Program-made: the position numbers and the translations under genes
The notes under the pieces: generated by a model
What the model saw: the letters and a program-made list of their open reading frames with translations, nothing else
Databases searched by the model: none
Told to the model about the DNA's origin: nothing
Source of the DNA: a virus
Virus record (IMG/VR): IMGVR_UViG_3300047471_000386
Coordinates: 1-34,576 of that record
Length of the DNA: 34,576 bases
Direction: 5' to 3' (one strand)
Shown: one piece after another, positions 1,580 through 25,665 of the stretch
Layout of the letters: each line of letters opens with the position of its first letter
Numbering within the stretch: the stretch's first letter is position 1

Positions 1580-1996
1580 ATGGCTACCCCAGAAGGTAAG
1601 GTCAAAGCCAAGGTCAACAAGATACTCGCCGCCCACGGGGCAAACGTATACTCGTACATGCCGGTCAAATCCCAGTTCGGCGCCACGACTATTGATTACC
1701 TAATATGCGCATACGGGTATTACCTCGGTATAGAAACCAAAGCCCCCGGCAAACACCCGACGCCCCTACAATGGCAGCATATTAGACGCATAGTCTCTTC
1801 GGGTGGTCTGGTGTTTGTTATCGACGGCGACACAACAGAGTTGGAGAAATTCCTTGCAAGTGCACGTATCGGCCAAGCACAAACTCCTAGGGGTTCCGTA
1901 TTCGGAACAGATCAAAAACCTGTTTCCCTCTGCGCCGGTGATGGGCAAATTCCTCCTGGTGCCGCACGCTCCCGACGCAAGCTTCCTGCTGCGTAG
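1580..1996 (+). CDS. VRR-NUC domain nuclease
   Basis: This 138-aa protein begins MATPEGKVKAKVNKIL and continues with FGATTIDYLICAYGYYLGIETKAPG and TPLQWQHIRRIVSSGGLVFVI, the pattern of VRR-NUC nucleases (PD-(D/E)XK superfamily, Holliday-junction-resolvase-like). The key residues D (TIDY), E and K (IETKA) and Q (LQWQ) are visible. Its role would be cleavage of branched or replicative DNA, often alongside phage SNF2 helicases. I chose the ATG at 1580, with TAGG just upstream; the frame extends further upstream but would overlap the tiny genes. The last ~45 residues (after ELEKFL) look like an unconstrained tail because the helicase gene starts inside this gene in another frame. Confidence 0.8.
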   Translation: MATPEGKVKAKVNKILAAHGANVYSYMPVKSQFGATTIDYLICAYGYYLGIETKAPGKHPTPLQWQHIRRIVSSGGLVFVIDGDTTELEKFLASARIGQAQTPRGSVFGTDQKPVSLCAGDGQIPPGAARSRRKLPAA

Positions 1997-4301
1997 GCTT
2001 GGTTACGACGTGCCCAGCCCGATCCTGACACACTATGATTGGTGCGGGGGAAAGCCGTTCGAGGCACAGCGTCAGACTGCGGCGATGCTGACTATGAATA
2101 ATAGGGCATACGTATTGAACGGCATGGGATGTGTTGATGCAGACACAGAATATCTGTCGCCTACTGGGTGGAAGCGCATTGCTGATTACTCCGAAGGTAA
2201 TGTTGCTCAATATCATCCGGACACGGAGACAATCGAGTTTGTGCAGCCGACGCAATTCGTCAAGCTGCCATGCTCAGACATGATACGGTTTAAAACTACC
2301 CGCGGTATAGACCAACTTCTATCGCCAGAGCATAGAGTGTTGTTGGCTGACGGCACTGTTGTTCCAGCGACCACAGTAGAAGAGACGTATGGCAGCCGCG
2401 CTGCGAGGGGGAAGAATAGGTTCCGAACCACCTTCCGAGTATTAGGTACGCCTGGTATCGCGCTAACTGATGAACAAATCCGTGTTCAGGTAGCCGTAAA
2501 CGCTGATGGGCACGAACGTAAAAGCGGTAGTGTGGCAGTACGCCTTAAAAAGGCGCGCAAGATCGAGCGTATGCGCCACTTACTGGTCGCTGCAGGTATA
2601 GCTCACGATGAACGCCCTTGCCCCCCTGCGGGTTTTGTTAGATTTACGTTTTCTCCGCCGGCGTGGAAGGGGTTTGGGCCACATTGGTGGGGGGCGACTC
2701 AGGCACAGCTTTGTGTAATAGCGGACGAACTTACACACTGGGATGGTACTGTTCATAAAAAGGACGGCCACACGTTCTCTTCGTATGAACGCGCCGACGC
2801 AGATTTTGCGCAATACGCATATAGCGCCTCCGGCCGTAGGGCCTCGCTTAATGTACCTAACGGCGTTGAATACGTCGTGCACGCAAAGGCCGGCGACCCA
2901 GTCATAGGGCTGCATCAGTTGCGTAATAACGTGCGTAGAGAGCCATCTACGGACGGATTTAAGTATTGCTTTATGGTGCCAAGCACGTTCCTGTTACTTC
3001 GCCGTAACGGCTGCATCTTCGCCACCGGGAACACCGGCAAGACGAAGGCAGCGCTGTGGTGGTGGGATTACCTTAGAAGTAACGGTCTATGCGGCAAGCT
3101 GCTGGTGTCCGCGCCGCTAAGCACGCTGGAGTTCGTGTGGGCGAAGGAAGTGTTCGCCACCCTATCGCATAGGAAGTGCGTCGTGCTTCACGGCACGCGC
3201 GATAAGCGCCTCAAGCGCGTAGCTGAGTCCGACGCCGAGATCTTCATCGTCAACCACGACGGCCATAAAATCATCGACGAGGCTGTGCTCGCGCGGGGCG
3301 ATATCGATGCGTTGGTGATCGACGAGTTGCGCGCGTTCTCCAACGCGGCAAGCGCCCGCAGCAAGGGTATGGCTAAGCTAGCATCAAAGATGAAGTGGGT
3401 GGTCGGCATGACAGGTAGCCCGATCCCGGGTGGACCGCTTGATGCTTACGGTCAATGCCGGATCGTCACGCCGCACACTGTGCCGAAGTATTTCTCGCAC
3501 TTCCGTGAACAGCTATGTACGCGGGACGGCCCCTACGACTGGACGCCGCGCGATAACGCGGTCGAACAAGTCTACAAGGCGATGACGCCACACGTCAGGT
3601 ACACGCTGGACGACGTGGTGGAGCTGCCCGAATGCGTCGAGCGCACCATGGACGTGGGGATGGGGGCGCAGCAGGCCCACATCTATAAAGAACTCAAAAC
3701 CAAGTGCTTCGCAGCTGTGCAGTCGCAGCAGATAACAGCGCTCAATGCTGGGGCGGTCATGATGAAGCTACTGCAGGTGGCATGCGGCTGGGTCTACGCC
3801 AAGGATGGGTCCATCGTGGCGCTGGACAACAACGAGCGCATGAAGGCTTTGTTAGATGCCATCGAGAGCACTGATCGTAAAGTGTTGGTGTTCGTGCCGT
3901 TCAAGCACGCCCTCGAAGGATTATGCAGCGCACTCACAAAAGAGAAGATAGATTTCGTCCCTATGTCCGGGGACACGCCGCCCAACAAGCGCGCAGAGAT
4001 ATTTAATCTGTTCCAGGGCACGACAAAATACAAAGTCATGCCGGCGCATCCAGCATGTATGTCGCACGGGGTCACGTTGACCGCGGCTGCAACAACTATC
4101 TGGTTTACGCCGATCCTAAGCCTCAACACATACGAACAAGCCAACCACCGCATGCGCCGTGTTGGGCAGCAGCACAAGCAGTTACTTCTGAAGTTACAAG
4201 GCACGCCAGTCGAGAAGAAGATCTACAGCATGCTCGACGGCCATCAGCGCGTGCAGGACAAGCTGCTTGAGTTGTTCGCCGATGGCACATCGCGTGAATA
4301 A
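1854..4301 (+). CDS. SNF2-like DNA helicase interrupted by an intein
   Basis: The extein is a phage SNF2/DEAD-type helicase: PFEAQRQTAAML (Q-motif-like), P-loop GMG^TGKT split by the intein, Walker B VIDELRAFSNA near 3316, motif III MTGSPIPGGPLDA near 3408 and motif VI QANHRMRRVGQ near 4138. I place the start at TTG 1854: GGAG at 1843-1846 is seven bases upstream, and homologues begin with a strand like VHVSAKHKLLGVPY. ATG 1941 is an alternative but would remove this conserved part. With the TTG start the precursor is 815 aa and the spliced helicase about 514 aa. It overlaps the VRR-NUC gene by 143 bases out of frame. It presumably remodels DNA during replication or recombination. A palindrome copy (4181-4197) lies in the coding sequence. 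Confidence 0.85.
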   Translation: MQVHVSAKHKLLGVPYSEQIKNLFPSAPVMGKFLLVPHAPDASFLLRRLGYDVPSPILTHYDWCGGKPFEAQRQTAAMLTMNNRAYVLNGMGCVDADTEYLSPTGWKRIADYSEGNVAQYHPDTETIEFVQPTQFVKLPCSDMIRFKTTRGIDQLLSPEHRVLLADGTVVPATTVEETYGSRAARGKNRFRTTFRVLGTPGIALTDEQIRVQVAVNADGHERKSGSVAVRLKKARKIERMRHLLVAAGIAHDERPCPPAGFVRFTFSPPAWKGFGPHWWGATQAQLCVIADELTHWDGTVHKKDGHTFSSYERADADFAQYAYSASGRRASLNVPNGVEYVVHAKAGDPVIGLHQLRNNVRREPSTDGFKYCFMVPSTFLLLRRNGCIFATGNTGKTKAALWWWDYLRSNGLCGKLLVSAPLSTLEFVWAKEVFATLSHRKCVVLHGTRDKRLKRVAESDAEIFIVNHDGHKIIDEAVLARGDIDALVIDELRAFSNAASARSKGMAKLASKMKWVVGMTGSPIPGGPLDAYGQCRIVTPHTVPKYFSHFREQLCTRDGPYDWTPRDNAVEQVYKAMTPHVRYTLDDVVELPECVERTMDVGMGAQQAHIYKELKTKCFAAVQSQQITALNAGAVMMKLLQVACGWVYAKDGSIVALDNNERMKALLDAIESTDRKVLVFVPFKHALEGLCSALTKEKIDFVPMSGDTPPNKRAEIFNLFQGTTKYKVMPAHPACMSHGVTLTAAATTIWFTPILSLNTYEQANHRMRRVGQQHKQLLLKLQGTPVEKKIYSMLDGHQRVQDKLLELFADGTSRE
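2130..3032 (+). mobile_element. Intein with LAGLIDADG-type endonuclease in the helicase P-loop
   Basis: The 301-residue insert starts at Cys (CVDADTEYLSPTGW, block A), carries block B (LLSPEHRVLL), and ends in a C-terminal block FLLLRRNGCIFATGN, with Thr of TGKT as the +1 residue. It splits the Walker A motif exactly between GMG and TGKT. Between the splicing blocks are two LAGLIDADG-like motifs, VAVNADGHE and IADELTHWDGT, each with its aspartate, so homing endonuclease activity is possible. The penultimate residue is Gly instead of the common His, a known variation. The helicase cannot bind ATP until splicing occurs. Splice borders follow from motif logic and are not experimentally shown. 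Confidence 0.85.
4181..4197. repeat. Dispersed palindrome copy 3
   Basis: GTTACTTCTGAAGTTAC lies in the helicase gene near its end, read Q-L-L-L-K-L, a different frame from copy 2. Confidence 0.65.
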
Positions 4302-11553: not shown

Positions 11554-14500
11554 TTAGTAATTGTAGACTGAGGTTCTTGCGATAATATCCTTGGTCTGCT
11601 TGGTGTTCCTAATCCCGCCCACTGCAGTGGCGTTGGTTTTGGCTTGCGAGCGCACGAAGCTATCCAGCTGCGAGCGCGTTAGCTGGTTCTCGCGCGGACG
11701 ATCTTTGTTCCACTGCTCGATGCGCCCCCAAAGCAACATACGGTCGTAGGGCTTGGCGGCTGCCCACTTGGTTTCGAAGTCCTGGCGCTCCTGGCGCTGC
11801 TGCGCACCCATGCGGCCGGCTTGCGCGCGTCGTTCGCCCTGCTCTGCAATGGCAGCAGGCGTGAAGCCTGCGGCCCGAACACCAATCTCGTACGGCGTCA
11901 TAGCGCGCTGCGTTTCCATACCACGGTCGTTAGTCGTAGGCGTTGTTCCTCGTGCAGCCTTTATCACATCCGACGCTGCCTTGATCGGGATCGCCAGCTC
12001 TGCAGCCTGGGCAAAGTCGCCCTTCATAAGGGCCTGGGACATCTTGACCTGATCCAGCAGCAGCCCAGCCGGTGCACCTGCGACCGTGTCGAACAGCCAC
12101 GCCTTAAGATCGTTGGGCTTGTTGGAGCGCGGGGCGCCGAACGTCAGCAAGCTATCCAAGCCTTGGCGGGCGCCGGACTCGATGCCAATCGCACGCGGCA
12201 GGCCGTGGGAGAAAATCTCGCCACCTTTCTTGCCTAGCACCGCTGCGGTCTTCTCGCGGATAACCTGCTCGAAGTCCTGCCAGCTGAACCCTGTCAGCCC
12301 GAACATGTTGGCTGCCATCAGCGCCACCTTGAATGGCTCCAACGGCAGACCCATAGCGCCCGCCACAACAGCGTGGGTAACCATCAGCCCAGCGAACTGC
12401 TTAGCTGCCTCACGGTCGCCTGCTATAGCGCCCCTGAAGGTGCTACCCAGGAGGTAGTAGGTTTTCTGCGCGAACTTCTTGAACTGCAGCGCCAGCGCCC
12501 CTACCGGGGTCTTGAACGCCCGCGCCGCGTTCCACGACGAGTAATCACCCATCGTCTTGTCGGTAGTTTCCAGCGCGTAGTGCATCGAGGCTTCGTGGTT
12601 GCCGGTGCGGCGATATTCCAGTTCGTACGCAGAGAGTGCCGTTACCGCGCGGTTGATACTTTCAATCGCCGTGCCGACCTGGTTCGCCATCAGGTCGGCA
12701 CGATCCAACCCGCGCCCCAAGGCGTTCGAGCTAGGATCGACGTGGCGCCCCACCTCGTAGATCGCGTTATGGCTGAGCAATCCGCGGTCGCGGATGTAGT
12801 CCAGCATCTCAGAGTATCTCCTTGCTTTGTCGCCACCCAGCGATGGTGACTTTGCAAGGTTATCCTTCATGTCCTTGATGTAGTCCGTGAATCCAAAGTC
12901 CTGGCTCCACGCCTTGGCGGTGTCACGCAGCGAGTTCATCATAGCGCCGCGCGCGCCGATGGCGTTATACGCTTCGCTCATGACGCGGGCAGCGGAGGCA
13001 AACCCGTGTCGACCACCTATCACCGGCAGGGCAGTCGTCCAGGGCTCCTGAGCGTTGATCACATGGAAGCTGACGCCAGCGAGCTTATCCAGGCGCGATA
13101 CCTGCAGCAGGCGATTGGCGATGGTTGAGCCTACGCCGGGCGCTTCTTGCGACGGTACGTCGTGTAGCGCTTTATCAAACGCCTGACGCAGCTCAGTGCG
13201 GCGTAGATGCTGTCCGTTGTTCTGATGCTTGAGGTCTTCGATGGTCTTGTCCATCGCGGCAAACGCCGCGTCGATCTTGGACTGCCACCGTAACTTCGCA
13301 AGGTAACGCGCCGAGGTCTTGGCGTACTCGGCAGTGACTTTGCCGATATCCTGCGAGAAGCCGGAAACATTTCTACGCTGCAGGAACCTGCCTTGAATCT
13401 TGGTAGCACCGCGTGCGATGATGCTGGCCTCGTTCAGGGCCTGGTGCATTGCATTCTTCACGGTGTCGGGTGCGTTCTTAAATCGATCCTGCCGCTCCAG
13501 CGCGTGCATCACCAATGCAATATCCCCGGCCATCATGCCCGGGCTCTTGGCGTTTAGCTCCCTACGCAGCGAAGTGCTCACGTCTTTAAGGCCGGCAGCG
13601 CGCAACTCTTCGGCACGGTTAAGGGCGCTGCTCTCGCTGGTGTGAAACTCCGTGTGCTGATCCTGCAGGCGTATCGCGTACGCCGGGACGGCGTTTACAT
13701 CGTCCTTGGGGAGGATCTTAGTGTGATCGTTCTTATCGACGAAGATCTTGTTCGTATCGGTGTGTGTTAGGTCGTGAGTTTTTGCCCAGGCCAAGGCTGC
13801 GTCTCTACCGGGCTTATCACCCCCGTTGTTGGCGGGGTCGGCGAACACGACCCTTCCATCGTCCAGCCGCGTAGCAGATTTTGGTACGTCGATTTCGTGG
13901 CGTCCGTTGACGACGAAGTCACCGTATCGCCTGAAGGGGAGATACAGTCCTTCGAGTCGCTTAAACTCGCGGATGCGATTGATCGCGCGTACTGGGGTGT
14001 CAGTCGCAAACTTCTCCCTGTCAGCATCGGTAAGCCCATCCATGTGTATGCGCTCGGCCAAGCCGGGCTCGTGGACACCTGCCGCTTCCAGCACGTTCTT
14101 GATATGCTGCAGCGACAGCTTGTTCTGCATATCGCGGAAATATGTTCCGACCTTCTGCAGCAGCGCTTGGCCCTCTTTGGGCAGCGCGTCGAACTGTTTC
14201 TGCAAGTCAGGCAGGCGATGTTTTGCTTGGACGTTGTTCGCCACGTCCTTGCCCAGGTGTGTGTTGTCAGCGGTCTTGCCCAGGTTAACGTTTAGATTGC
14301 TGGCTTCGAACCCAACCTCGGCAACATCCGCCAGCTTCTCGTTTCCGAAGTCACGTTGAAACTCAGCGATATCGCGCACGATCTTCTCGCCACCGTGGTC
14401 GCCCAGTATCTTGGTGGCTTCCTGGTTCTGACGCGATAGCGCCTCGACTAGATCCTTCGCGTTGCCGTGGAACTGTTCGCCAGCGCGTGCAGACTGGTAG

Positions 14501-17500
14501 CCTAGCTGGCGTACGCTGGACAGCGTATCCATACCCCGGCGTAGTTTGCCGGCAAGATCTATACCAGTGTTCCTTACCCCGGAAGTAACTTCCTCTCGGG
14601 TCGGCGTCCTAAGCGCGCGAGTTCCCGGCTTCCAATCGCCGCGCGGCTCCACACGACCTTGGGAAATCAACCAGTCGCCCTGCGCCAGTGCCCCTTCCAA
14701 AAGGGTATGTGCGCCATCCGGCATACCCAACCACTTACGAATAGAAGCAACTAGCGCGTCCCACATAGAGCGGCGCTCGCCCATCTTCATGGAGGCAGCC
14801 AACTCGGGCGACATGTCAATGCGAGCGAGAAGCTTCTGGAACTCCGGGTTGGATAGCGCCTCCGAAATAAACTCGTGCTCGTCCGTCAGCGCATAGTGCG
14901 CCACTCGCAGTGCGTCTTCGTCGCCTGTATCCGTTAGGTACTTATCCACCTCGGCGAGCATACGTTTCGTTTGTTCGGCAGCGGCGGTGGATTTTTCCAG
15001 TGCGTCGTTGGCAGCCTCATGCAGCAGCTCGTGCAGCACGACGTGACTGTATTTTTGCTTGTCTTCGAATACATCCTTGCGGATATACACAGCCCTGGTT
15101 TTGCGGCTCCATAGTCCTTCAGCAGAACTATAAGACGGTCGCCCGTCCATGCGGGCCATATCCTCTAGCGAAACAACATGGATTTTAGTATCGCCGATAA
15201 GGCTCTTCAGGCGCGCAGATACAGCAGTGTAGATTGCGCGAGACACCACGCCGTGGGGCAGCGCATTGGAAGACAGTGCTTCCCGTGCAGTGGTCGTGTG
15301 CACGGGTCTGAAATATGCACCACCGGGGGCCTTCTCTATGCGTGGTCCGCCGCCCTTGGCGCGCACGTCTTCTGGGATCGGCAGCTCGTGCTGATCGGAA
15401 GCTTCCTTCTTGGTGTTACCCTCTTTCAGCCACTCCTGGAACTTGTCCTTCGACATCGACACGATGTTGCCGATGCGGTCGAAGCCCCTGCCATCGGAGA
15501 AAGACTTCTCATAGGCTTCCATGGCGGCGGGGCCGTCCTTGTAGCCGTACATGACTTTGTGTTCGTCGAACTTCCCGGTGTCGGGATCGATCTGGTCAAT
15601 GACGAAGACATGCTCGCCCTTGCCGCTGTAGGTGATATCTACGTGGTCGCCGTCCGCACCCTTGGTACGCTTAATGTAGCCGTAGTGGTCCGGCATGACC
15701 ACTTCCCACGGCTTACCATCCGGGCCGATACCCTTGCGTGTTGAGCCCTTCTCATTCTCGATGGCAATATCTAGACCGTCAACACTGAGATGTGTTTTCT
15801 TATAGTTGCCCGCTTCCTTCTGGGCGGGCGTAGGCTCAGTGTTTACTTTGGCGGCTACCTTCTCCTTTATCGCAGCTACTTTTTCTGTAACCTTTGGGGT
15901 AACTTTGGTTTCGTATTTGGCGCGCTCTTCGGCAGTAACTTTGACGTGGCGTAAAGCCGAAGCTGCCTTAGCCCCCACCGCTTTCACCACGGTGCCGGCC
16001 TTGGTAATGAGGCGGCGCTCTTCTGCTGCATCTTCTATATGCACGCCGCTGGTTGTCTTGGCGGTTTCGGGCTCGCCTCGGCTAACATGAGCAGCGGCTT
16101 CGCCAGCGGACTTGCGCTCGCTGCGCATAATGCTGAAGTCGCCACCGTAGGCAGCTCGCTCGCGGCCGGCGAAATCGATGATATGCGCCTTTACCCCGCT
16201 GCTGGAATATCTGCCCAACAGGTCCTTAACCTCACGCAGCCAAACGACGTGGTCGGGCGTGGTGTCAGTTACTTTCTGGGGGATCGTAACCCCGGCCTCT
16301 TCGGCGGACTTTACGATCCCTTGCAGACGGTCAAGCAGTGCCCTCTTATCCTTCATACTGGTGGGGTAGACGAACTTGTCGGGCTTGCTCGCGTCGAAAA
16401 TGGCCTTCGCCTTGTCAGCGTCGCTGACTAGCTTTTCCTTCTCCGCCTTGGTGCGATGCTTCTCGCCGGGCTCTACCGGCTTCTCGGCGGCACCTGCTTC
16501 TTTGAGGGCTGCAGCTTGCTCAGCCCTAGCCTTGGCTACGATCTCCTGGGCGCGCGGAGTCAAGTCCTCCAGTACGCGGGGCTTGGTAGGAACTTCCGGC
16601 TTAGGTGCTACAGGCTCTACAGCGCGAGGCTGGGGGGCCGCCTGGGCGACCGGCTCGGGCTGGGGTACTTCGGGCGGCCTAACCTCGGCAGCGCGCTGTA
16701 CGGGCTCTACAGCTATGGCTGGAGGCTCCTGGCGGATAGGTTGGGGGGCTAGCTGTGCAGCCTCAGGCTGCGGGGGAGGGACGTGCGGCTGCGCCACCTC
16801 GGCAGCGGTCTGGCGGTCAGTGATTACCTCGGGGCCTGGACTGTGCGCAGCGATGGCTACAGCCTGGTCTGGCGCAATCGTCGCGACGACGGGCTCAGTT
16901 GTGGGGGGTGGCTTGTTCTTCTTGCCTTTGGCGACGGCCTTGGCGGCTTCAGCCTTTGGGTAGGTACGCTCCGATCCCGTGTGCGTGATCTCGCTACCGA
17001 CCGGGATAGTTTCGTCCGGGGCCGGGGCCGCACCGGTGCGCCCTGTCTTTAGGACTGAGCCAACGTCGGCAGGTGTGCTGGTCGGGGTAGGTTCTTTGGC
17101 AGTTACTTCGGGAGTAACTTCTCCCTCTGCCGGTCTTCCTTTAGCTTTGCCCGCCCGTACCCCAGCAAGGCTGCCCAGAGCGCCAGCGAGAACAGTGGGC
17201 TCAAGGATAGCATTAACAAGCGCCTGCCTATCGAAGTCCTTTGCAAGGCCCCCCTCCATCTCGGCATGTTGTTCGGTGTAGTTAGCGACACCACCTTGTA
17301 GGCCACCCGTGCCGCCAGCTTCGAGCGCGCCCATGCCCATACGCTTGGCAGCGCCTTGCTCGGCAGCGCCCAGCACCGCACCTTCGCCACCGCGGGCCAG
17401 CATGCCCGCTGGGCCTACGGCATTCGCGATAGCCCCAATCGCGAAGTTGATGGCGGGCTTGGCGCCCATGATCTGGTGGTTGTACTGCTCGCGAGCCTGC

Positions 17501-18060
17501 GGCTCGTCGAACATCGTACGCAGGCCCCTGTAGAGTTCGCTCTCTTTCTGAAGGGCCTTATCGGATAGCGCGTCAGTCTTGGCGTAGATATCGTCTACGA
17601 ACTGCCCGGTGTTGACCGCACCGCCAGCTGCAGCAGCAGCTACAGTAGCGCGCACCGCGCCACCCACAACGCCACCGGGGAGCGCGCTCGCCAAGAGTTG
17701 CGCCGACATGCCCGTGGTCTTTAGGGCACCAGCGCTAAACGGGTGGCTCAAGAAGTCGCCCGATGTGATGCTCGATTCAAGGCGCTTATGGGCTTCATCG
17801 GACAAGCCACTAAGCGTCTGCTCCTTGCCGATGTTGGAGATTTGCTCTTGGGTCTTGTCTAGCGCGGCGAGATCCTTGGCGCCGATCAGCTCGTGGACGT
17901 ACCTGGCGCCGGCCGACATCTGGGCGTCGAGGCCCTGCACGCTGGACGCGGCAACGCGACCGTAGTCAGCCCAGGTGGGCGACTGCTGGTCCGTTACGGG
18001 TGCTTTCTCTGAGCCTAACGACCAATCATCAGCCATTGACACCGTGGCATTTTCCGCCAT
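11554..18060 (-). CDS. Giant ejection protein with InPase-like and HELLH metallopeptidase domains
   Basis: At 2168 aa this is the largest gene here. Residues ~1-310 are helical with Gly/Ala-rich hydrophobic segments. Residues ~310-545 are a Pro/Ala/Glu linker. Around 745-880 is an inorganic-pyrophosphatase-like domain (GLDIAIENEKGSTRKG, MPDHYGYIKRTKGADGDHVD, DPDTGKFDEHKVM). Near 1010-1014 is the zincin motif HELLH (VVLHELLHEAAND). The last ~1000 residues are mostly helical, with a PLxRFG-like stretch (VGALALQFKKFAQKTYYL) and a coiled end. This layout fits the polyvalent proteins that phages inject with their DNA, merged with the largest podovirus internal core protein. The two enzymatic domains probably act in the host after entry. 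Three palindrome copies lie in its linkers (14574, 15887, 17102). Confidence 0.8.
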   Translation of the reverse strand: MAENATVSMADDWSLGSEKAPVTDQQSPTWADYGRVAASSVQGLDAQMSAGARYVHELIGAKDLAALDKTQEQISNIGKEQTLSGLSDEAHKRLESSITSGDFLSHPFSAGALKTTGMSAQLLASALPGGVVGGAVRATVAAAAAGGAVNTGQFVDDIYAKTDALSDKALQKESELYRGLRTMFDEPQAREQYNHQIMGAKPAINFAIGAIANAVGPAGMLARGGEGAVLGAAEQGAAKRMGMGALEAGGTGGLQGGVANYTEQHAEMEGGLAKDFDRQALVNAILEPTVLAGALGSLAGVRAGKAKGRPAEGEVTPEVTAKEPTPTSTPADVGSVLKTGRTGAAPAPDETIPVGSEITHTGSERTYPKAEAAKAVAKGKKNKPPPTTEPVVATIAPDQAVAIAAHSPGPEVITDRQTAAEVAQPHVPPPQPEAAQLAPQPIRQEPPAIAVEPVQRAAEVRPPEVPQPEPVAQAAPQPRAVEPVAPKPEVPTKPRVLEDLTPRAQEIVAKARAEQAAALKEAGAAEKPVEPGEKHRTKAEKEKLVSDADKAKAIFDASKPDKFVYPTSMKDKRALLDRLQGIVKSAEEAGVTIPQKVTDTTPDHVVWLREVKDLLGRYSSSGVKAHIIDFAGRERAAYGGDFSIMRSERKSAGEAAAHVSRGEPETAKTTSGVHIEDAAEERRLITKAGTVVKAVGAKAASALRHVKVTAEERAKYETKVTPKVTEKVAAIKEKVAAKVNTEPTPAQKEAGNYKKTHLSVDGLDIAIENEKGSTRKGIGPDGKPWEVVMPDHYGYIKRTKGADGDHVDITYSGKGEHVFVIDQIDPDTGKFDEHKVMYGYKDGPAAMEAYEKSFSDGRGFDRIGNIVSMSKDKFQEWLKEGNTKKEASDQHELPIPEDVRAKGGGPRIEKAPGGAYFRPVHTTTAREALSSNALPHGVVSRAIYTAVSARLKSLIGDTKIHVVSLEDMARMDGRPSYSSAEGLWSRKTRAVYIRKDVFEDKQKYSHVVLHELLHEAANDALEKSTAAAEQTKRMLAEVDKYLTDTGDEDALRVAHYALTDEHEFISEALSNPEFQKLLARIDMSPELAASMKMGERRSMWDALVASIRKWLGMPDGAHTLLEGALAQGDWLISQGRVEPRGDWKPGTRALRTPTREEVTSGVRNTGIDLAGKLRRGMDTLSSVRQLGYQSARAGEQFHGNAKDLVEALSRQNQEATKILGDHGGEKIVRDIAEFQRDFGNEKLADVAEVGFEASNLNVNLGKTADNTHLGKDVANNVQAKHRLPDLQKQFDALPKEGQALLQKVGTYFRDMQNKLSLQHIKNVLEAAGVHEPGLAERIHMDGLTDADREKFATDTPVRAINRIREFKRLEGLYLPFRRYGDFVVNGRHEIDVPKSATRLDDGRVVFADPANNGGDKPGRDAALAWAKTHDLTHTDTNKIFVDKNDHTKILPKDDVNAVPAYAIRLQDQHTEFHTSESSALNRAEELRAAGLKDVSTSLRRELNAKSPGMMAGDIALVMHALERQDRFKNAPDTVKNAMHQALNEASIIARGATKIQGRFLQRRNVSGFSQDIGKVTAEYAKTSARYLAKLRWQSKIDAAFAAMDKTIEDLKHQNNGQHLRRTELRQAFDKALHDVPSQEAPGVGSTIANRLLQVSRLDKLAGVSFHVINAQEPWTTALPVIGGRHGFASAARVMSEAYNAIGARGAMMNSLRDTAKAWSQDFGFTDYIKDMKDNLAKSPSLGGDKARRYSEMLDYIRDRGLLSHNAIYEVGRHVDPSSNALGRGLDRADLMANQVGTAIESINRAVTALSAYELEYRRTGNHEASMHYALETTDKTMGDYSSWNAARAFKTPVGALALQFKKFAQKTYYLLGSTFRGAIAGDREAAKQFAGLMVTHAVVAGAMGLPLEPFKVALMAANMFGLTGFSWQDFEQVIREKTAAVLGKKGGEIFSHGLPRAIGIESGARQGLDSLLTFGAPRSNKPNDLKAWLFDTVAGAPAGLLLDQVKMSQALMKGDFAQAAELAIPIKAASDVIKAARGTTPTTNDRGMETQRAMTPYEIGVRAAGFTPAAIAEQGERRAQAGRMGAQQRQERQDFETKWAAAKPYDRMLLWGRIEQWNKDRPRENQLTRSQLDSFVRSQAKTNATAVGGIRNTKQTKDIIARTSVYNY
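14574..14589. repeat. Dispersed palindrome copy 5
   Basis: TTACCCCGGAAGTAAC in the 2168-aa gene is read V-T-S-G-V-R on the - strand, at about residue 1158. Confidence 0.7.
15887..15903. repeat. Dispersed palindrome copy 6
   Basis: GTAACCTTTGGGGTAAC in the 2168-aa gene is read V-T-P-K-V-T, just before the InPase-like domain. Confidence 0.7.
17102..17118. repeat. Dispersed palindrome copy 7
   Basis: GTTACTTCGGGAGTAAC in the 2168-aa gene is read V-T-P-E-V-T at the start of the Pro-rich linker (about residue 315). Its core is identical to copy 2. Confidence 0.8.
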
Positions 18061-18089: not shown

Positions 18090-18239
18090 ATGGGGCAGGT
18101 ACTTCGTTACTGGGCGCTAGCCCTACTGTTTATCTTGCCTATCGTCGTGGTCGGAGTAGGTTGGGTGGCCTACCAAAAGCTAACCGGTCCTAGCTGCGTT
18201 ATCGAGCCCGGCACGTTGGGCTGCGAGAAGCATTACTGA
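18090..18239 (+). CDS. Small membrane protein encoded against the late operon (49 aa)
   Basis: ATG 18090 is preceded by AGGAGG (18079-18084) at an ideal five-base distance, the best ribosome site in the window. The product has Arg6, a hydrophobic helix at about residues 8-27 (WALALLFILPIVVVGVGWVA) and a short tail with two cysteines (GPSCVIEPGTLGCEKHY), suggesting a single-pass protein with its Cys pair outside. It fills a 172-base gap that has no - strand gene and ends seven bases into the converging 653-aa gene. It could be a moron-type gene expressed independently, such as an exclusion protein; the function is not shown. Confidence 0.6.
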   Translation: MGQVLRYWALALLFILPIVVVGVGWVAYQKLTGPSCVIEPGTLGCEKHY

Positions 18240-20194
18240 GGTGGTCTGTTTAGCTCCGGTATATACGCCCCCCTCCCAATCGCTCCGGGTGTCATAACCT
18301 TGCTGCGTTGTTTGTCGCGCTCAGCGGCTTGCTGCGTTTGTAGATCCGAAATAAGCCCCTGCTTTTTCTTCTCCTGAGCCTGCTCTTCCGCAGTCTTAGC
18401 GTCGGCTGCTTCCTTGCCCTTCTGAGCACTGGCCCGGGCGAGCGCGATCTGCGCTAGTGCGTTGCGTGATAGTTTGATTACACTACCGTCCTTGAACTCG
18501 GCAGTGGCGCTGCCGTCCTGGCTGGGTGTCAGCTTGTAGTCCGGCGCGTTCTTGGCGTCGGTAAGCTTGAGCGCAGCGCGTATCGACATGGCCGGGTCCG
18601 CGTCGTTGGAGACGTGGATCTGCGATGCGATGCTCTTGACGGTGCCTTCGGTTTCCTTGCCCAACTCGAACCCGCTAGCCGCATCCTCGATGTTCTTAGC
18701 TGCGTTGGTGCGGTCGCTAAGCTTAGGCACGCCCATGGGCTTTGGTTGTTGGGTGGGTTTGTCCGGCTTCATGCCGGCAATCTGTGACATGGTCTGCCAG
18801 TACGTAGAGCCGTTGGCCACGCCGGTCGCCAGCTTCACAAGCTGCGGGCCGCCGAACTTGCCAAGGTCCTGTGCGTTGCCGTCCGAATCAATCGTGCGCG
18901 CATGCACCAGATTATCGGGTCCGATGAACGCTTCGATCTTCTTGCCATCCGGCATCACGTCGTATGCCTTCTGCAGAAACGTAACAGCGCCCTGAGCGTC
19001 GCCCTTCTGCATCAGCTCCATCGCGTAGCGCCCAAACTTCTCGCTGTTGATGGCGCTCATCTCCACCATGCCAACAGCCAGCGCCTTGGCAGACTTTACG
19101 TCACCCTTAGACAGGGCGTTCTTCACGCCGGCGTTGAGGCTCGCAATCAGTCTTGCGTTTTCAGTAAGCTCGTCGTGGGGATCGACTACTTTGGCGATCT
19201 GCTGGTATTGCGCATCGCTCATGGCGTTGGGCTTCTTGGTGACAGCCTCAACCATTGCCGAATGCCCCTTGTCCAGGGCGCTTGCACCTTTGCTTGTGCT
19301 ATAAGCTTCCTGCATCGCCGCAAGGCCGAACCGAACCGGGTTTACATCCGTGGGGTCCTTCTTCGGCGCTTCACCAACGGCACCCTGCTTGCTCCAGCCC
19401 TCGGGCTCCGGGGCGTTCTTCCAGCTATCGATCACTTCGCTGGTGTTGAACCCGATGCTGTTGTTCCAGCCTTTTTTAGATGCTGAAGCCGCAGGAGGAG
19501 GAGGCGGAGTAGGTGGAGGCGATGCGGGAAGGGGTGCAGGGTCACCCACGGCCGGCTGCGAAACGGCAGTCTGCGATGCATCATTGTCCTGCACCGGCGG
19601 GAACTGCTGCGCCGTACCACCATCTGCGTAATACCCAACAGCCGGCCTGCTGGCCATACCACCAGCCGCCATCTTGGGCGTCTGTTCGGTATCGTCAGTA
19701 TCGTCAGTCGTATCGTCTTCTTCCTCTGTCTCGTCCGCCTCTGCGGGTGCTTCCGTGTCCTCTGGGGCCGGCACAGCCGAAGTGTTAATGTCGTTAGTGG
19801 CGCCTACAGCGGGCGTGAACGAACGCGTCGCCGGCGGGGGCTGGCTACCCCCGAAGTTATACGCGGAGTCGACGCTGGGGATCTGAATAGCGCCACCCGT
19901 CGTACGACCAGACGGATTCCACTTGCCCTGCTTCTGCAGCTCGAACTTGTCAGCTTCGCGCTGTGCTTTTGCGTGCCGATCTCCAAGCATGGCGCGCTGG
20001 TATTCGGTCATAGGCTTAGCGGCGCTACCCTTGCCGCCGGACATGATCTTGTAAATCTGGGCCTGCGTAAGGTCGTGCTTATCCTGGGCTTCACCGGTCT
20101 TGAGTTTTAGAAGGGCGTCAGCGGTCTGTTGCTTCTTGACCTTATCATATTCGTTTACGAAACCAGCAACCGCGGCAGATAGATTAAACGACAT
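18233..20194 (-). CDS. Internal virion / DNA-ejection protein (653 aa)
   Basis: Start at ATG 20194 (MSFNLSAAVAGF) with GAGG six bases upstream; the six-codon longer frame lacks a site. The N-terminus is a charged helical region (EYDKVKKQQTADALLKLKTG). The middle is low-complexity: an acidic run (EEEDDTTDDTDDTE), MAAGGMAS, YYADGG and a Pro-rich stretch. The C-terminal ~350 residues are helical with many Ala/Lys. Position between the 433-aa and 2168-aa proteins and composition match the middle ejection protein of podoviruses (gp15-type role). No enzymatic motif is seen. The first codons overlap the endonuclease VII gene. Confidence 0.65.
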   Translation of the reverse strand: MSFNLSAAVAGFVNEYDKVKKQQTADALLKLKTGEAQDKHDLTQAQIYKIMSGGKGSAAKPMTEYQRAMLGDRHAKAQREADKFELQKQGKWNPSGRTTGGAIQIPSVDSAYNFGGSQPPPATRSFTPAVGATNDINTSAVPAPEDTEAPAEADETEEEDDTTDDTDDTEQTPKMAAGGMASRPAVGYYADGGTAQQFPPVQDNDASQTAVSQPAVGDPAPLPASPPPTPPPPPAASASKKGWNNSIGFNTSEVIDSWKNAPEPEGWSKQGAVGEAPKKDPTDVNPVRFGLAAMQEAYSTSKGASALDKGHSAMVEAVTKKPNAMSDAQYQQIAKVVDPHDELTENARLIASLNAGVKNALSKGDVKSAKALAVGMVEMSAINSEKFGRYAMELMQKGDAQGAVTFLQKAYDVMPDGKKIEAFIGPDNLVHARTIDSDGNAQDLGKFGGPQLVKLATGVANGSTYWQTMSQIAGMKPDKPTQQPKPMGVPKLSDRTNAAKNIEDAASGFELGKETEGTVKSIASQIHVSNDADPAMSIRAALKLTDAKNAPDYKLTPSQDGSATAEFKDGSVIKLSRNALAQIALARASAQKGKEAADAKTAEEQAQEKKKQGLISDLQTQQAAERDKQRSKVMTPGAIGRGAYIPELNRPPQ

Positions 20195-20690
20195 TGGTGG
20201 CCTCACAAGCATATGCGGCTAGTCGATGCAGCGTATTCTTATTCTCGCCCACTAGTCCTAAAGCGGTGTTGCAATTGCTACACAGCAGCCCACGTATTTT
20301 GCCAGTCGTATGGCAGTGATCTACGCATAACCTCTTCTTAGCGGTAGGTTGGCGCCCGCACCCAACACATGCACCGCCCTGCGCTTTAAGCATCTCGGTG
20401 TATTCTGCCAAGGTGATGCCATATGCCCTCTTCAGTCTGAAATTCAACATACTATCTGGGTTTGCATCCCGCCATGCCTTATTGCGCGCTCGCATAAGCT
20501 CAGGGTTCTCTTTGCGGAGCTTAGCTTGTCGTTCCCTAGCTTTTGCTCTAAAATATTCAGTGTTTTTCTCGCGATATAGATCGTTCTTTTCCTTCATCCG
20601 TTTCGGATTTTTTAGCCGATATTTTTTCTCATTAGCGCGAGCCGTCAGCCGCCTGTCCTCAGCCAAATATAAATCTACAGCGGATAGCAT
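20184..20690 (-). CDS. Recombination endonuclease VII family (HNH/His-Me finger)
   Basis: The 168-aa product has a long basic N-terminal helix (about residues 15-75, rich in Lys/Arg/Glu), then a His-Me finger: GACVGCGRQ (C108, C111), LCVDHCHTTGKIRGLLCSNC (D124, H125, C137, C140) and NTALGLVGEN. This is the Endonuclease_7 pattern. The start overlaps the stop of the 433-aa gene (TAATG), and the end overlaps the next gene's start. Endonuclease VII-type genes can resolve branched DNA, but free-standing copies inserted among structural genes are often homing-type elements. Its insertion between two ejection-protein genes favours the latter. Confidence 0.8.
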   Translation of the reverse strand: MLSAVDLYLAEDRRLTARANEKKYRLKNPKRMKEKNDLYREKNTEYFRAKARERQAKLRKENPELMRARNKAWRDANPDSMLNFRLKRAYGITLAEYTEMLKAQGGACVGCGRQPTAKKRLCVDHCHTTGKIRGLLCSNCNTALGLVGENKNTLHRLAAYACEATNVV

Positions 20691-21991
20691 TAGATTGCTC
20701 CCGCTTGCTGGGGCCTACCGCCAATCGCTCCGTTGGGGGTAACGGGACGCGACTGGAATGTAGGTGCTTGTGGGCGAGCTGGCCCAACAGCCGGCTTCGC
20801 AACAGCACCTTGTCTGTCCTGGCGGGATTTTTGAATCATCTTCTGTAGTTTTTCTTCGCCCATCCAGCTGGTGACATCCTTTGGCATAACGAACTCGCCC
20901 GCAGTGAGCCTCGCGCTCACGTCGTCAGTAGCTTGGCCGCGAGACGGGGAAGCACCGGCCGGGATCGCACCGCCCGGCGTAGGCACATCCCCGCCAGAGG
21001 CGGAGAACACAAACCTGCTCTGTGGCGCTGCCGGCGTTGCCATAGCTGGGGCTGATGCGGCTGGCCCTACGGCTGGAGCTGCGGCGGCGGAAGTTGGCGC
21101 CATGGACGGGATCGCGCCGCCATCAGCCGCAAATAAGAACGGGCTCTTCAGCGCGGCAGCGCCAAGCGTTGTAGCGCCCCCGAATAACGTTGCGCCCAAT
21201 GCACCCCACGCCTGAGATGACGCCTGATTCGCCTGATATTGATCCTGATAGTTAGTCTGCTGGTTGGCGAACTGCTGCCCCTGCAGCGCTCCAGCAGTAT
21301 TCAACGCTGTGTTGCTCAGACTACCGAACTGCGAAGGGGTGCCCATCGTGGACGCACCGCTCGCGGTCGTAGCCAATCCAGTGTTGGCGCCGGCAGCGTT
21401 GCCCTGGAGCGCAGTGTTATACTGCCCGCCAACTTGACCCTGAGTAATCTGCCCGTTCTGGATGGCTTGTTGGATAAGCGCACGCCCCGTGGCATCGACC
21501 TGAAGCCCGGCTTGGTTCTCGGCGCCGGCAGTGGCAGCCGCCTGCTGCATACGCACGCCAAGGTCCAGCGCACCATAACGCGTCGAACTTGGATCGATCC
21601 CATAGCTCTCCAGGTCGCGCGTGGCGTTATCCCGCGCTGCATCAAACGACTGCCCCACGGCAGCGCCGGCAGCGCCCATCTGCTGTTCGCGGAACGCCGG
21701 GTTGTTATACTGTTGGGCCTCCTGCGCCTGCTCATTGAGAAGAGGCACAGTGGTGGCTTCGTATTGCGCTCGGTCCTGCGCGGCGTTCGCAGCGTTGGTC
21801 TTCGCTATCGCCAGTTGCTGATCGATGATCGGCTGGTTCTGAGCAAGGTTCTGGGCATAGGCGGTCTTGGCCCAGTCGAGCTGCTGTTGCTCTAGCGCAT
21901 ACTGCTTGTTAGAGGCGTCAGTAGACGCTTTAATAAGCCCGCTGTAATCCGGTGCGGGAGGGGGAGTTGGAGTGGAACTACTACCGCCCAT
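20690..21991 (-). CDS. Internal virion / ejection-type protein (433 aa)
   Basis: It starts MGGSSSTPTPPPAPDYSGLI and is rich in Ala, Gln and Asn, with predicted long helices (KQYALEQQQLDWAKTAYAQN, AQDRAQYEATTVPLLNEQAQ). A hydrophobic glycine-rich stretch around residues 258-285 (AWGALGATLFGGATTLGAA) could insert in a membrane. The C-terminal third is disordered, with repeated ADGG/SGGD/GGAIP motifs. This matches the smallest podovirus core/ejection protein (gp14-type role), which forms a pore in the host envelope; this is inferred from composition and gene order. Confidence 0.65.
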   Translation of the reverse strand: MGGSSSTPTPPPAPDYSGLIKASTDASNKQYALEQQQLDWAKTAYAQNLAQNQPIIDQQLAIAKTNAANAAQDRAQYEATTVPLLNEQAQEAQQYNNPAFREQQMGAAGAAVGQSFDAARDNATRDLESYGIDPSSTRYGALDLGVRMQQAAATAGAENQAGLQVDATGRALIQQAIQNGQITQGQVGGQYNTALQGNAAGANTGLATTASGASTMGTPSQFGSLSNTALNTAGALQGQQFANQQTNYQDQYQANQASSQAWGALGATLFGGATTLGAAALKSPFLFAADGGAIPSMAPTSAAAAPAVGPAASAPAMATPAAPQSRFVFSASGGDVPTPGGAIPAGASPSRGQATDDVSARLTAGEFVMPKDVTSWMGEEKLQKMIQKSRQDRQGAVAKPAVGPARPQAPTFQSRPVTPNGAIGGRPQQAGAI

Positions 21992-22421
21992 GCTGGCGCC
22001 TCTGTACGTTTCTGGGCTTCAAATCAAGCCAGCGACACTGGGCGCGGTACATGCCCATTACAACCGCATCACCATCCGGGAAAACGTCGCGGATACGCGT
22101 CTCTACAGTAAAACCCAAATGCTGCGCAAAGTCAAAAGCTTTGAGGTTACTCGAACGTTGCATACCGATAATCTTCTTTACGCCTAGTTGGTTAAACGCA
22201 TAGTCGAAAACTAGCCACAGCCCATCCCTGGAGATCCAGCGTGTGTTGAAGCTAGCTACGTGCATTTTGATGCTGCAGCCGGTGTACTCGGTATAGATCA
22301 CGCCACCCAGTAGCTCGTTACCTCGAAGGTTACTTATTACGATGTCACGTACGGGGTCGAACGTGCATCGCGCTTGTCTGGATAGCTGGCCGCCGTGCTG
22401 AATATTGTTAAATTCTATCAT
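21981..22421 (-). CDS. GNAT-like acetyltransferase (146 aa)
   Basis: The protein has the order of a GNAT fold: a strand with LLGGVIYTEYTG, HVASFNTRWISRDGL, LWLVFDYAFNQLGVKKIIGM and RSSNLKAFDFAQHLGFTVET, the last corresponding to the acetyl-CoA-side N..A..F...LGF motif. It lies between the tailspike and the first ejection protein, a place where many podoviruses keep a GNAT gene. The target is unknown: virion protein, host protein or surface sugar are all possible. No clear ribosome site is seen, so it may be coupled to the tailspike gene nine bases upstream. Confidence 0.65.
   Translation of the reverse strand: MIEFNNIQHGGQLSRQARCTFDPVRDIVISNLRGNELLGGVIYTEYTGCSIKMHVASFNTRWISRDGLWLVFDYAFNQLGVKKIIGMQRSSNLKAFDFAQHLGFTVETRIRDVFPDGDAVVMGMYRAQCRWLDLKPRNVQRRQHGR
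22317..22333. repeat. Dispersed palindrome copy 8
   Basis: GTTACCTCGAAGGTTAC in the GNAT gene is read S-N-L-R-G-N, a frame different from the V-T-P-E/K-V-T copies. Confidence 0.65.
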
Positions 22422-22430
22422 GTGGTTAGT

Positions 22431-23924
22431 TCATTGGTTTTCGTACACACCCGAAAATGAAGTTCGATCATTGAGAGCCCAGTTGGCAAGCGCACTTTGC
22501 ACACAGTTAGCTGTTGTATTACCAGTTTTGATAGAGCATCCAGCCAACGCTGCAGTGTTATAATTAATCCCGGGTAAAGCCCCACCAGAGTTCGGAACAC
22601 TGGGCAACGTAAAGCTTATTAGGTTTGACAAAGTACCTGCGGCCGAGATGGAAAAATCAACCTCTATGTAGGTAGATTTTCCAATCATTTTGTATTTTGC
22701 AGAATTTACTATAAATGTAGCGGTACCGGTCCACGAAAAGCCTGGCGTAAATGTCTTCCAAACCCCGTCTACTGCATATGTGTTCGCCATAGTTGGCGCG
22801 GGGGCGGTGTTAGCTTCTACGAGGCCATAAAACTTGTTTGCAGTCGCAAACCCACCTGGCGCTCCAGCGTTAGCAAAGGACCCCACTTCGTATTGAAAAA
22901 AACTATTGCTCGACGGAAAACTATTGTTAGACGAGTAATCTAGCTGCATACCGACTCCGCCGCCGGAAAATCCAGATACAGCTAAATTATCAAAGGCATT
23001 GCTGTCACACACAGCAAGGTAAACACCAAAGTTTGCTACGCCGCCGGGAGTACGCACAAACACGTTGGAGAACGTATTATAATCGGTATCGGAAGTTCCA
23101 CCGGCATCTCCCGTCAGCACTATACCTTTAGCCGCAGCGATGGCGGGAACTAAGATCGATAGGTTTGTCCAATTATTGTGGAGACTATCGACCTTGCCAA
23201 CTCCACTATACCCTCCTATTGGATTAGAGGTAGAAGCAATTGCATTTCCTCCGAAATTCTGCAATGTCAAGTCCGAACAGCTACCAAACGAAGCTGAGGT
23301 AACAAGGATTCCATTTAGGCCCGCTGTGGATACCCCATCAAGAAACAGGTTTCGAATACCCCAGCCGGATAGGGGTCCATTGATCAAAATCATACTTGTA
23401 GATGTTCCGCCGGCCCACGTTAATTTAGGGCCGTTCGTGGTGGTATAACCGTTGAAGAATGGAGATGCTGTAGAAGCGTTTGGGTCGCCTGCCCCGAGTA
23501 AAACAACGCCGCTACGTGTCGAGACAGCTGAAGTCGTTCCGTTTCCTATGCTAAGCGGAGAACTAACCTTATAATTACCGACAGGAAACAACACAGTGCC
23601 GCCACTGGCGGTTAGTGAGTTTATAGCATTTTGAATCGCAGTGGTACTATCCGAAACCCCGGTAGGATCTGCTCCAAAATCCTTAACATTTACCGCAAAA
23701 TCGTTGATGTTGGTGCTGGTGGTGATCGTCGATACCCGTACATATTGCGAATCAATCACCCCCATTGAAATCAAATCAGCGAACGTCACAGCCCCCGCCG
23801 GCTTGTTCACCGCACCGCGTTGCTGGGTAAGTGTCTCAAGCATCTGCTTCATGGCCTGGCACGCATCGCGCAAGCTATCGACTGTGTTTCCAATATCCGG
23901 GATCGCGGCGAATTTATTAGACAC
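22431..23924 (-). CDS. Tailspike with beta-helix (pectate-lyase-like) domain
   Basis: The 497-aa product starts at GTG 23924 with AAGGAG seven bases upstream. The N-terminal ~65 residues (MSNKFAAIPDIGNTVDSLRD, ETLTQQRGAVNKP, VTFADLISMGVID) form the virion-binding part. Then VKDFGADPTGVSDSTTAIQN and GGTVLFPVGNYKVSSPL mark the start of a Pectate_lyase_3 type right-handed beta-helix. Later repeats are rich in Asn, Gly and Ser. Such spikes bind and often cleave capsule or O-antigen. Base composition here is more AT-rich than in neighbouring genes, in line with exchange of receptor-binding modules. Confidence 0.8.
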   Translation of the reverse strand: MSNKFAAIPDIGNTVDSLRDACQAMKQMLETLTQQRGAVNKPAGAVTFADLISMGVIDSQYVRVSTITTSTNINDFAVNVKDFGADPTGVSDSTTAIQNAINSLTASGGTVLFPVGNYKVSSPLSIGNGTTSAVSTRSGVVLLGAGDPNASTASPFFNGYTTTNGPKLTWAGGTSTSMILINGPLSGWGIRNLFLDGVSTAGLNGILVTSASFGSCSDLTLQNFGGNAIASTSNPIGGYSGVGKVDSLHNNWTNLSILVPAIAAAKGIVLTGDAGGTSDTDYNTFSNVFVRTPGGVANFGVYLAVCDSNAFDNLAVSGFSGGGVGMQLDYSSNNSFPSSNSFFQYEVGSFANAGAPGGFATANKFYGLVEANTAPAPTMANTYAVDGVWKTFTPGFSWTGTATFIVNSAKYKMIGKSTYIEVDFSISAAGTLSNLISFTLPSVPNSGGALPGINYNTAALAGCSIKTGNTTANCVQSALANWALNDRTSFSGVYENQ

Positions 23925-25665
23925 TGGCCAGCTCCTTAGCGGTGGTGGCCATCTGCACGGAGTAGATATCCAGCTTGGATGTAATCACGATCTGGTGGAA
24001 GTCAGCCGTATACCCCGAGGGCAGCTTCATGAGTTCGCCCGAAGTAACAATATTTCTTGTGAAGACTAAGTTACCATCGGCGTAGAGCTGCACCGTTCCG
24101 TAGTCCACGCCGGGGCCGCCCAACACCACACCTACCGGAACTCCGAAGTATATCCTGAGCGCCTGGAAATTCTTTTTTTGGCTCGTCTGGATTATTTTGG
24201 ACTTCCAAATGTAAGTGTCAACGGCTGGGGGGACGCCGGAAATATCGAACCAATTAAGGTTACCATTTCGTACGATGAGTACTTCACCGGTCCACGTATC
24301 GTTATAAACGTTCTGCGCCGGCTGGGCGTTCGTAAGGATGCTCAGCGCTAGGCGTTGATCCTTGGGGTATATGAGCATGCCAGTTGTAGCACCGGCGTTG
24401 TCCGTCTGAGCGAATGCGGTAGTCTCGAACGCGGTTGTTTCGAATACGCCAGAGCGCTGGCTACCGAACGCATAATACGCATCGCCAAGCTTGGCAGCGC
24501 GCAAGGTGCTGGTATTAAACAACGTATTCCACTCGTCCTTGCGGATCATGGCGCGGGTGACGTTCACCGCCACGCCCTGCGCTACAAGGATCAGGCCATT
24601 AGGCGATGTGTAGTACACGCCATCCGTAGTCGAGACTATGCTGGCTCGCGACGTGCAGGGCTCCAGCGCCGATAGCTTGGCGCTGGTTACGACAGTCGGG
24701 TGCGAGCCCGTCATCGCTACCGGGTATCCCTGCGTACACACAATAAGCGTTTGGCCTACAACGCCTAGCCCTACCACTGTGAACTCGACAGCGACGGTAT
24801 AAGCGGCAGGCCACGCATGCGGCCTGTAAGGCTCACAAAACCAAACTTCGTTCTTCCTAAACCCGGCAATCATGCCGTTGGGCATTTGAGTCAAGCCTTG
24901 GAGGTCCGTAGGCGGCGCTGTCCATGTAGTGCTTGGTAGTATGGGTTGAAGGACTGCAGCTGAGTCGGGGGCTGTGTCTGCGAATGTCAATGTGCCGATG
25001 GATAGCCCCGTCCAGACGTTATAAAAGCTTGTTACACCATTGGACGCAGTGACGGTACGGTAGACATTAGTGCTAGCTAGATTGCGATCAGTGCCGTTGG
25101 TGTCGTTGGCCGCAGCGGCAGTCATCGTCAGCGTCCACGTGCCATCTGGGTGGCCCGTAGCAGTCACCGGCGGAGCCGGCGGCCCTTCTTCGCCGTAAGC
25201 ACTAACCCATGTATACGTATAGCTTCTGGTAACGTTTGCGGCGGAACCGCCAGAAATACCTAGTGTTCCAGCGACCGGCGACGGAATACCCAACTTCAAC
25301 GCGTTAGTGGCAGCTATAATTCGCGCTTCGGTGTTGTATTGCGGCACCTGGGTAGGCGACGCGAAATAGTACCTCTTGAACGTATCGTTTACTACAGGCG
25401 CTTTAATAATGTCCGTATCAGCGTCCGCAAACTCCAACCAATATGACACCGAAATATGCTGAATGTCCGGCTGGCTGATCGGTATACGGTAGACTTTTAA
25501 AGTGCCACCAGAGTTAGCACGTAGCACCTTGGGGGTGTGCGTCGCCGTAAGCGCGCCGTTGTTTAGCCAAGTGTTTTCCGCATACGCAGAGTTGGGGTCC
25601 GGCAAAAGACGGTCGTCAATTGCCGGGACCATACCCCCAAACGACGTAGTGCGGAAAGCGACCAC
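23917..25665 (-). CDS. Phage tail/neck structural protein (582 aa)
   Basis: Start at GTG 25665 with AAGGA eight bases upstream. The N-terminus (FGGMVPAIDDRLLPDPNSAY and AENTWLNNGALTA) matches a podovirus protein type placed just before tailspike genes. It includes fibronectin-like stretches (RSYTYTWVSAYGEEGPPAPP) and many beta-strands. Its role is probably the tail tube/nozzle or hub that connects adaptor to spike; I cannot name the family. Its end overlaps the tailspike start by eight bases. A half palindrome (VTSG) occurs near 24040-24052. Confidence 0.6.
   Translation of the reverse strand: MVAFRTTSFGGMVPAIDDRLLPDPNSAYAENTWLNNGALTATHTPKVLRANSGGTLKVYRIPISQPDIQHISVSYWLEFADADTDIIKAPVVNDTFKRYYFASPTQVPQYNTEARIIAATNALKLGIPSPVAGTLGISGGSAANVTRSYTYTWVSAYGEEGPPAPPVTATGHPDGTWTLTMTAAAANDTNGTDRNLASTNVYRTVTASNGVTSFYNVWTGLSIGTLTFADTAPDSAAVLQPILPSTTWTAPPTDLQGLTQMPNGMIAGFRKNEVWFCEPYRPHAWPAAYTVAVEFTVVGLGVVGQTLIVCTQGYPVAMTGSHPTVVTSAKLSALEPCTSRASIVSTTDGVYYTSPNGLILVAQGVAVNVTRAMIRKDEWNTLFNTSTLRAAKLGDAYYAFGSQRSGVFETTAFETTAFAQTDNAGATTGMLIYPKDQRLALSILTNAQPAQNVYNDTWTGEVLIVRNGNLNWFDISGVPPAVDTYIWKSKIIQTSQKKNFQALRIYFGVPVGVVLGGPGVDYGTVQLYADGNLVFTRNIVTSGELMKLPSGYTADFHQIVITSKLDIYSVQMATTAKELASV

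Follow-up and report, generated by a model that had tools for sequence, protein, structure and literature searches.

A giant phage protein of the polyvalent type with a near-constant zincin domain and an exchangeable pyrophosphatase-like domain, probably an ejection protein

Analysis of a 34,576-base viral sequence (the window, which is the whole of the virus record) pointed to a giant protein that we think is reasonably likely to be the largest of the ejection proteins encoded by a temperate phage with a short tail, to be of the polyvalent type, and to work through the whole of the mechanism proposed below. Two catalytic domains were recognized in it, a pyrophosphatase-like (InPase) domain and a zincin metallopeptidase domain. 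Judging from comparisons among relatives, the zincin appears to behave as a near-constant part of a delivery frame that carries the InPase as a cargo open to exchange.

The protein of 2168 aa is encoded by a single, ATG-started open reading frame on the minus strand (11554 to 18060), which matches phrog_37402 (E = 1.7e-225). Its N-terminal domain (residues 1 to 310; 17131 to 18060, minus strand, as for all parts of the gene) is rich in Gly and Ala, has mildly hydrophobic stretches, and is kept in relatives according to blastp and profile matches. No strong membrane span was predicted in the giant protein, the Kyte-Doolittle peaks of the N-terminal domain reaching just 1.3 to 1.5. Next come a linker of 18% Pro and 19% Ala (residues 311 to 530; 16471 to 17130) and a conserved middle segment of no known family (residues 531 to 700; 15961 to 16470), which is 40 to 44% identical in three relatives (L002, L085, and L098). 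The InPase domain (residues 746 to 879; 15424 to 15825) and the zincin domain (residues 905 to 1125; 14686 to 15348) follow. Beyond them, a region at about residues 1182 to 1396 (13873 to 14517) appears related to LPD39; the Pfam match (E = 0.029) was below the cutoff, and the region's profile matched the LPD39 of L040 (E = 3.8e-24) and that of L008 (E = 1.4e-18). From about residue 1150 to 2168 the protein is mostly helical by prediction, ending in a modeled and conserved helical region (residues 1509 to 2168; 11557 to 13536) with 80 related loci. An RNA polymerase domain was absent from the Pfam matches of the giant protein. The original prediction had set both enzymes between a Pro-rich linker and a long helical end, an arrangement that composition and structure prediction bear out, and its residue ranges for the InPase domain and the HELLH motif were accurate. 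Relatives that match over the full length include L002, with 34%, and the protein of Rhizobium phage RHph_TM27A, with 32%. The close relative L098 has about 240 extra C-terminal residues (L098:13287-14021) that contain a second HExxH motif (HESMH) and have no Pfam match.

Assignment of the InPase domain draws on profiles, structure, and conserved residues. The protein scored 158.2 bits against PF18823 (cutoff, 26.8; E = 1.3e-46), covering profile positions 2 to 135 of 135. The score against the cellular type I pyrophosphatase family PF00719 was below the Pfam cutoff (12.3 versus 23.5 bits), so the domain is a relative rather than a member of that family. We modeled residues 735 to 1245 from 31 natural sequences, and confidence was high over both enzyme domains (pLDDT mostly 85 to 95 at about residues 755 to 880 and 950 to 1110). 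When the two-domain model was searched with Foldseek, type I pyrophosphatases ranked at the top with a probability of 1.00 but an E value of only about 0.002. VIA-align placed the InPase part on pyrophosphatases from the PDB with a Z of about 7, which is middling by the program's own warning; the sequence evidence therefore matters. Among 87 InPase sequences, D803, D808, Y793, and the FDEHK motif (residues 831 to 835) were invariant, and D805 was kept in 85. Together, D803, D805, D808, and FDEHK constitute a conserved acidic metal site. We take the three aspartates to be the equivalents of D65, D67, and D70 of Escherichia coli pyrophosphatase, based on an alignment in which only the stretch from 51 to 74 of the E. 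coli sequence aligned well. With a strong family match, a confidently predicted fold, and active-site residues that are invariant or nearly so, the InPase-like domain expected at about residues 745 to 880 is well founded, and the structure prediction and profile searches proposed for the enzyme regions recovered both folds.

The zincin domain was likewise supported by more than its motif. By composition, about 0.1 HExxH motifs are expected; HELLH is present at residues 1010 to 1014 (15019 to 15033) and would supply two zinc ligands and the general base. A second stretch, from Y1056 to E1067 (14860 to 14895), carries the putative third zinc ligand, E1063, within an HEFxxEA motif. Across 24 aligned zincin relatives, HExxH and E1063 were invariant and Y1056 was kept in 22. 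In VIA-align comparisons, the best match of this domain was the PhiM1 tetrameric ejection protein (TEP; 8vb2, residues 268 to 503; Z = 7.4), and the next was a solved zincin metallopeptidase (Z of about 7) whose zinc ligands have been published and whose Y-x6-E spacing is the same as that of the giant protein. Within EFxxEA, we considered the second Glu for the role of ligand and rejected it: the zincin of known ligands points to the first Glu, which is kept in the giant protein, PhiM1, and N4, and the alternative would make the PhiM1 and N4 proteins look degenerate. The HELLH zincin anticipated at about residues 1010 to 1014 thus gained a third ligand, a flanking tyrosine, a confident fold, and invariance among relatives.

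Profile comparisons connected this domain to known ejection proteins. With the zincin profile, hhalign gave 97% for PhiM1 TEP (E = 8.9e-11) and 92% for the N4 virion RNA polymerase (vRNAP; E = 8e-7), and hmmsearch matched the former at E = 6e-10. In the PDB, a profile containing the zincin recovered three structures of ejection or internal virion proteins (8vb2, 9sfn, and 23sg). The zinc ligands were invariant across PhiM1-, N4-, and giant-protein-type zincins. These matches indicate homology of the zincin with part of the PhiM1 ejection protein and with the domain of N4 vRNAP that contains HExxH, and they back a modeled fold whose Z values are middling. In PhiM1 gp48 itself (L118:7198-10986), HEAAH, Y442, and E449 lie within residues 268 to 528 and are invariant in nine relatives. 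Those residues have been labeled endolysin/exotransglycosidase-like (PMC11440229); our alignments indicate that, contrary to the published label, they appear to be a zincin.

The gene neighborhood places the giant gene among virion genes. The window contains capsid, tail, endolysin, and integrase genes, which identifies all or much of the genome of a temperate phage, presumed from its relatives to have a short tail. On the minus strand, the late block runs from a 582-aa head/tail protein (23917 to 25665; phrog_511, "internal virion protein," E = 8e-110) through a 146-aa acetyltransferase (21981 to 22421), a 433-aa virion structural protein (20690 to 21991; phrog_8003, E = 1.2e-50), and a 659-aa protein (18233 to 20212) to the giant gene, which is last. 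The 659-aa protein, the upstream neighbor of the giant gene, is a possible gp15-like ejection protein whose position is kept in relatives. Most relatives with enough flanking sequence have the same order, as does Burkholderia phage JC1, in which gp61 (E = 2e-49), gp63 (E = 6e-16), and gp64 (E = 5e-11) match the 582-aa, 146-aa, and 433-aa proteins. JC1 gp68 occupies the position of the 659-aa protein and has no sequence match to it. Virions of JC1 purified with CsCl contained the giant protein of the block, gp69, which was represented by 51 unique peptides, and also gp61, gp64, and gp68 (PMC9144972). BLASTP of the giant protein against JC1 gp69 gave no match, and we treat the two as equivalents by position rather than by direct alignment. 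The shared gene block, with gp69 detected in virions, supports the presence of the giant protein in the virion. The gene order in JC1 and the zincin held in common with the PhiM1 ejection protein also agree with the proposal that the enzymes sit in the same chain as the core ejection protein.

Elsewhere in the window, an HNH endonuclease VII-like gene, perhaps a homing gene, lies between the 433-aa and 659-aa genes (20184 to 20690, minus strand). On the plus strand, an SNF2-type helicase (1803 to 4301) has its Walker A motif broken by an intein-like insert (NGMG, then C-VDADTEYLSPTGWKRIAD ... CIFATGN, then TGKT). Rfam and tRNA searches of all 34,576 bases returned nothing.

By structure, the helical end shows only a weak likeness to T7 gp16 and PhiM1. 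Its model aligned over 200 to 239 residues with T7 gp16, PhiM1 TEP, and the core protein of phage E1004 (Z = 5.0 to 5.6), including T7 gp16 at a Z of 5.6 over 234 residues and the helical core of PhiM1 TEP at a Z of 5.5, the latter by structure only. These matches stand among unrelated ones of similar Z, mostly with shorter alignments, and Foldseek with the helical end returned nothing convincing. Sequence-profile comparison with T7 gp16, represented by a single T7 sequence, did not reveal homology (hhalign probability, 0.1%), and a gp16-like function is for this reason an inferred one. Homology of the far C terminus to N4 vRNAP was also considered and dropped. A colinear hhalign match of 58% between full-length alignments fell to 1% for the region alone, where the score (29.1) did not exceed what column shuffles reached (maximum, 29.1) and was lower than that of the reversed control (31.7); we therefore do not claim it.

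To distinguish frame from cargo, we relied on a sample chosen without regard to either enzyme. Viral contigs searched with the C-terminal 660 residues alone yielded the 80 loci mentioned above, and 35 of these C-terminus relatives, which also have the N-terminal domain, formed the comparison set. HExxH was present in 35 of 35, a zincin profile match in 33, and InPase in 18; some loci are near-duplicates, and these counts are of sequences, not independent lineages. Five changes of InPase state were needed on the C-terminal tree, and at least four gains or losses are required by the branches with good support. The close relatives L201, L206, and L207 differ by entire blocks, with the InPase and a GNAT-like segment each either there or missing within otherwise alignable sequence. 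Pfam scans of the enzyme bay in relatives lacking InPase yielded mostly nothing, the exception being an ART domain in L096. The giant open reading frame of L206 has an extra insert in the bay that has no Pfam match and looks ART-like by eye. Farther C-terminus relatives have no recognized HExxH. Near constancy of the zincin, set beside an InPase found in about half of the same relatives, is what suggests that the former belongs to the delivery frame and the latter to its cargo.

Several steps make up the mechanism that we favor. The giant protein would be packed into the head along with the 433-aa and 659-aa proteins, as gene order suggests, and during infection it would exit via the tail and fill the role of T7 gp16. 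Its N-terminal domain and helical C-terminal part would anchor it in the inner membrane, and the flexible linker would allow the InPase to reach the cytoplasmic side. There, with the conserved metal site described above, the InPase would hydrolyze a diphosphate bond, most likely that of pyrophosphate (PPi) released near the entering DNA or of a nucleotide substrate at the entry site. The zincin, as a standing part of the frame, would most likely cut the giant protein itself, freeing or trimming the cargo. Behind this proposal are the two predicted folds with their conserved active sites, a gene order kept among relatives, the homology of the zincin to domains of ejection proteins, and InPase exchange. 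Counting against it are structural Z values of 5 to 7, the lack of a T7 gp16 profile match, the failed control for homology of the helical end to N4, the equivalence of JC1 gp69 by position rather than by BLAST, and the lack of a strong membrane span. Known precedents for processing differ: P1 DdrB, a polyvalent protein with a metallopeptidase (MPTase) domain, is processed before packaging, and N4 vRNAP is packaged unprocessed despite its zincin domain (PMC5512222), which weakens the self-cutting step.

Other roles for the InPase deserve consideration. It could clear PPi and so help incoming phage DNA to undergo early transcription or replication, as Iyer et al. proposed (PMC5512222). A metal-binding motif the same as that of cellular pyrophosphatases fits this role, as does the RNA polymerase that N4 carries in a comparable layout. 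We nevertheless regard PPi clearance as somewhat unlikely, given that half of the relatives have no InPase and that pyrophosphatase is normally abundant in the host. The original prediction and Iyer et al. instead raised an injected counter-defense enzyme that destroys nucleotide alarm signals of the host. Exchange between relatives is what an arms race would produce, and polyvalent InPase relatives adjoin NUDIX, GNAT, and TmrB genes (PMC5512222); but exchange does not single out defense, and the metal site is of the PPi hydrolase type, making this role unlikely.

As for the zincin, Iyer et al. offered the cutting of host proteins after injection as one option (PMC5512222), and the complete active site and a fold common to a host-directed zincin would suit such an effector. 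The related expectation that the protease was an added weapon against host or defense proteins fared poorly. The domain occurs in 35 of 35 relatives regardless of InPase, nearly constant while cargo varies, and in ordinary ejection proteins, a distribution that better fits a built-in frame or processing role and leaves a host-cutting effector quite unlikely. Both domains might even be noncatalytic building blocks used, for example, in head packing or DNA binding, given that InPase is fused to portal C termini in Pa193 and E217, in a region without density. Little or no variation occurs at the metal site and in FDEHK, however, the portal copy included, and the zinc ligands are invariant in PhiM1-, N4-, and giant-protein-type proteins, so that building blocks are very unlikely. 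Least credible is late production of the protein in the infected host, outside the virion, which is highly improbable in view of the virion gene block, the detection of JC1 gp69 in virions, and the zincin and helical likeness to ejection proteins.

Extending the favored reading, we tentatively suggest, with somewhat less than even confidence, that the largest ejection proteins of several short-tailed phage groups (N4 vRNAP, PhiM1 TEP, and the giant-protein family) share a zincin-plus-helical delivery frame in which the protease matures or releases cargo, and that phages exchange the contents of a front enzyme bay, among them RNA polymerase, InPase, and acetyltransferase, with the "endolysin-like" domain of PhiM1 being that zincin. 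In the literature that we consulted on polyvalent proteins and ejectosomes, we did not find the link between frame and ejection protein, this rereading of the PhiM1 domain, or a counted exchange of cargo. The giant protein joins those two literatures, one built on sequences and the other on structures. If the zincin is constant and the enzymes exchangeable, then each cargo becomes a candidate for an activity in early infection, open to testing singly, and for solved ejectosomes such as that of PhiM1 there is a definite hypothesis of catalysis.

The giant protein adds a further example to a fusion type that was put forward in 2017. Iyer et al. named polyvalent proteins, described InPase and MPTase domains in them as well as InPase on portal proteins, and suggested for such domains both processing of their own chain and action on host targets (PMC5512222). 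The combination of InPase and metallopeptidase in injected phage proteins is not new. The fusion is in fact the usual state: in the present sample, HExxH or HExxxH lies downstream in 51 of the 55 InPase proteins that are 1400 aa or longer. LPD38-type InPase proteins (L018, L033, L011, and others) have HExxxH (HEVLAHYG) rather than HExxH after the InPase, a variant described for one MPTase set (PMC5512222). With predicted unrelated enzyme domains in one chain and a late virion gene context, the giant protein would be polyvalent; it has the InPase family, the zincin motif pattern, the gene context, and the several unrelated domains in common with the proteins of Iyer et al., and differs in having a C-terminal frame that we can connect with ejection proteins. 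The same InPase family occurs in a virion protein of Pbunavirus Pa193 (gp19, 9b41; E = 5.5e-19), which is a portal and not an ejection protein. JC1 gp69, DarB-like and from the Bcep22-like phages, has the same block position as the giant gene but is more than twice as long (PMC9144972), and BcepMigl gp69 has transglycosylase, methylase, helicase, and LPD38 domains and no InPase match. The full-length relative QIG66915.1 (phrog_37402) of RHph_TM27A, a cultured phage whose host is Rhizobium phaseoli, is annotated only as a hypothetical protein and has the same N-terminal domain, InPase, zincin, C terminus, and gene order. N4 vRNAP (gp50) has a similar layout of N-terminal domain, low-complexity linker, enzyme, HExxH domain, and helical C terminus (PMC12633501), with RNA polymerase where the giant protein has InPase and with a homologous HExxH domain. 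PhiM1 TEP (gp48, 8vb2) is without InPase and, at 1263 aa, is shorter (PMC11440229), yet its homologous zincin is followed, in the same order as in the giant protein, by a helical part that aligns over 200 residues.
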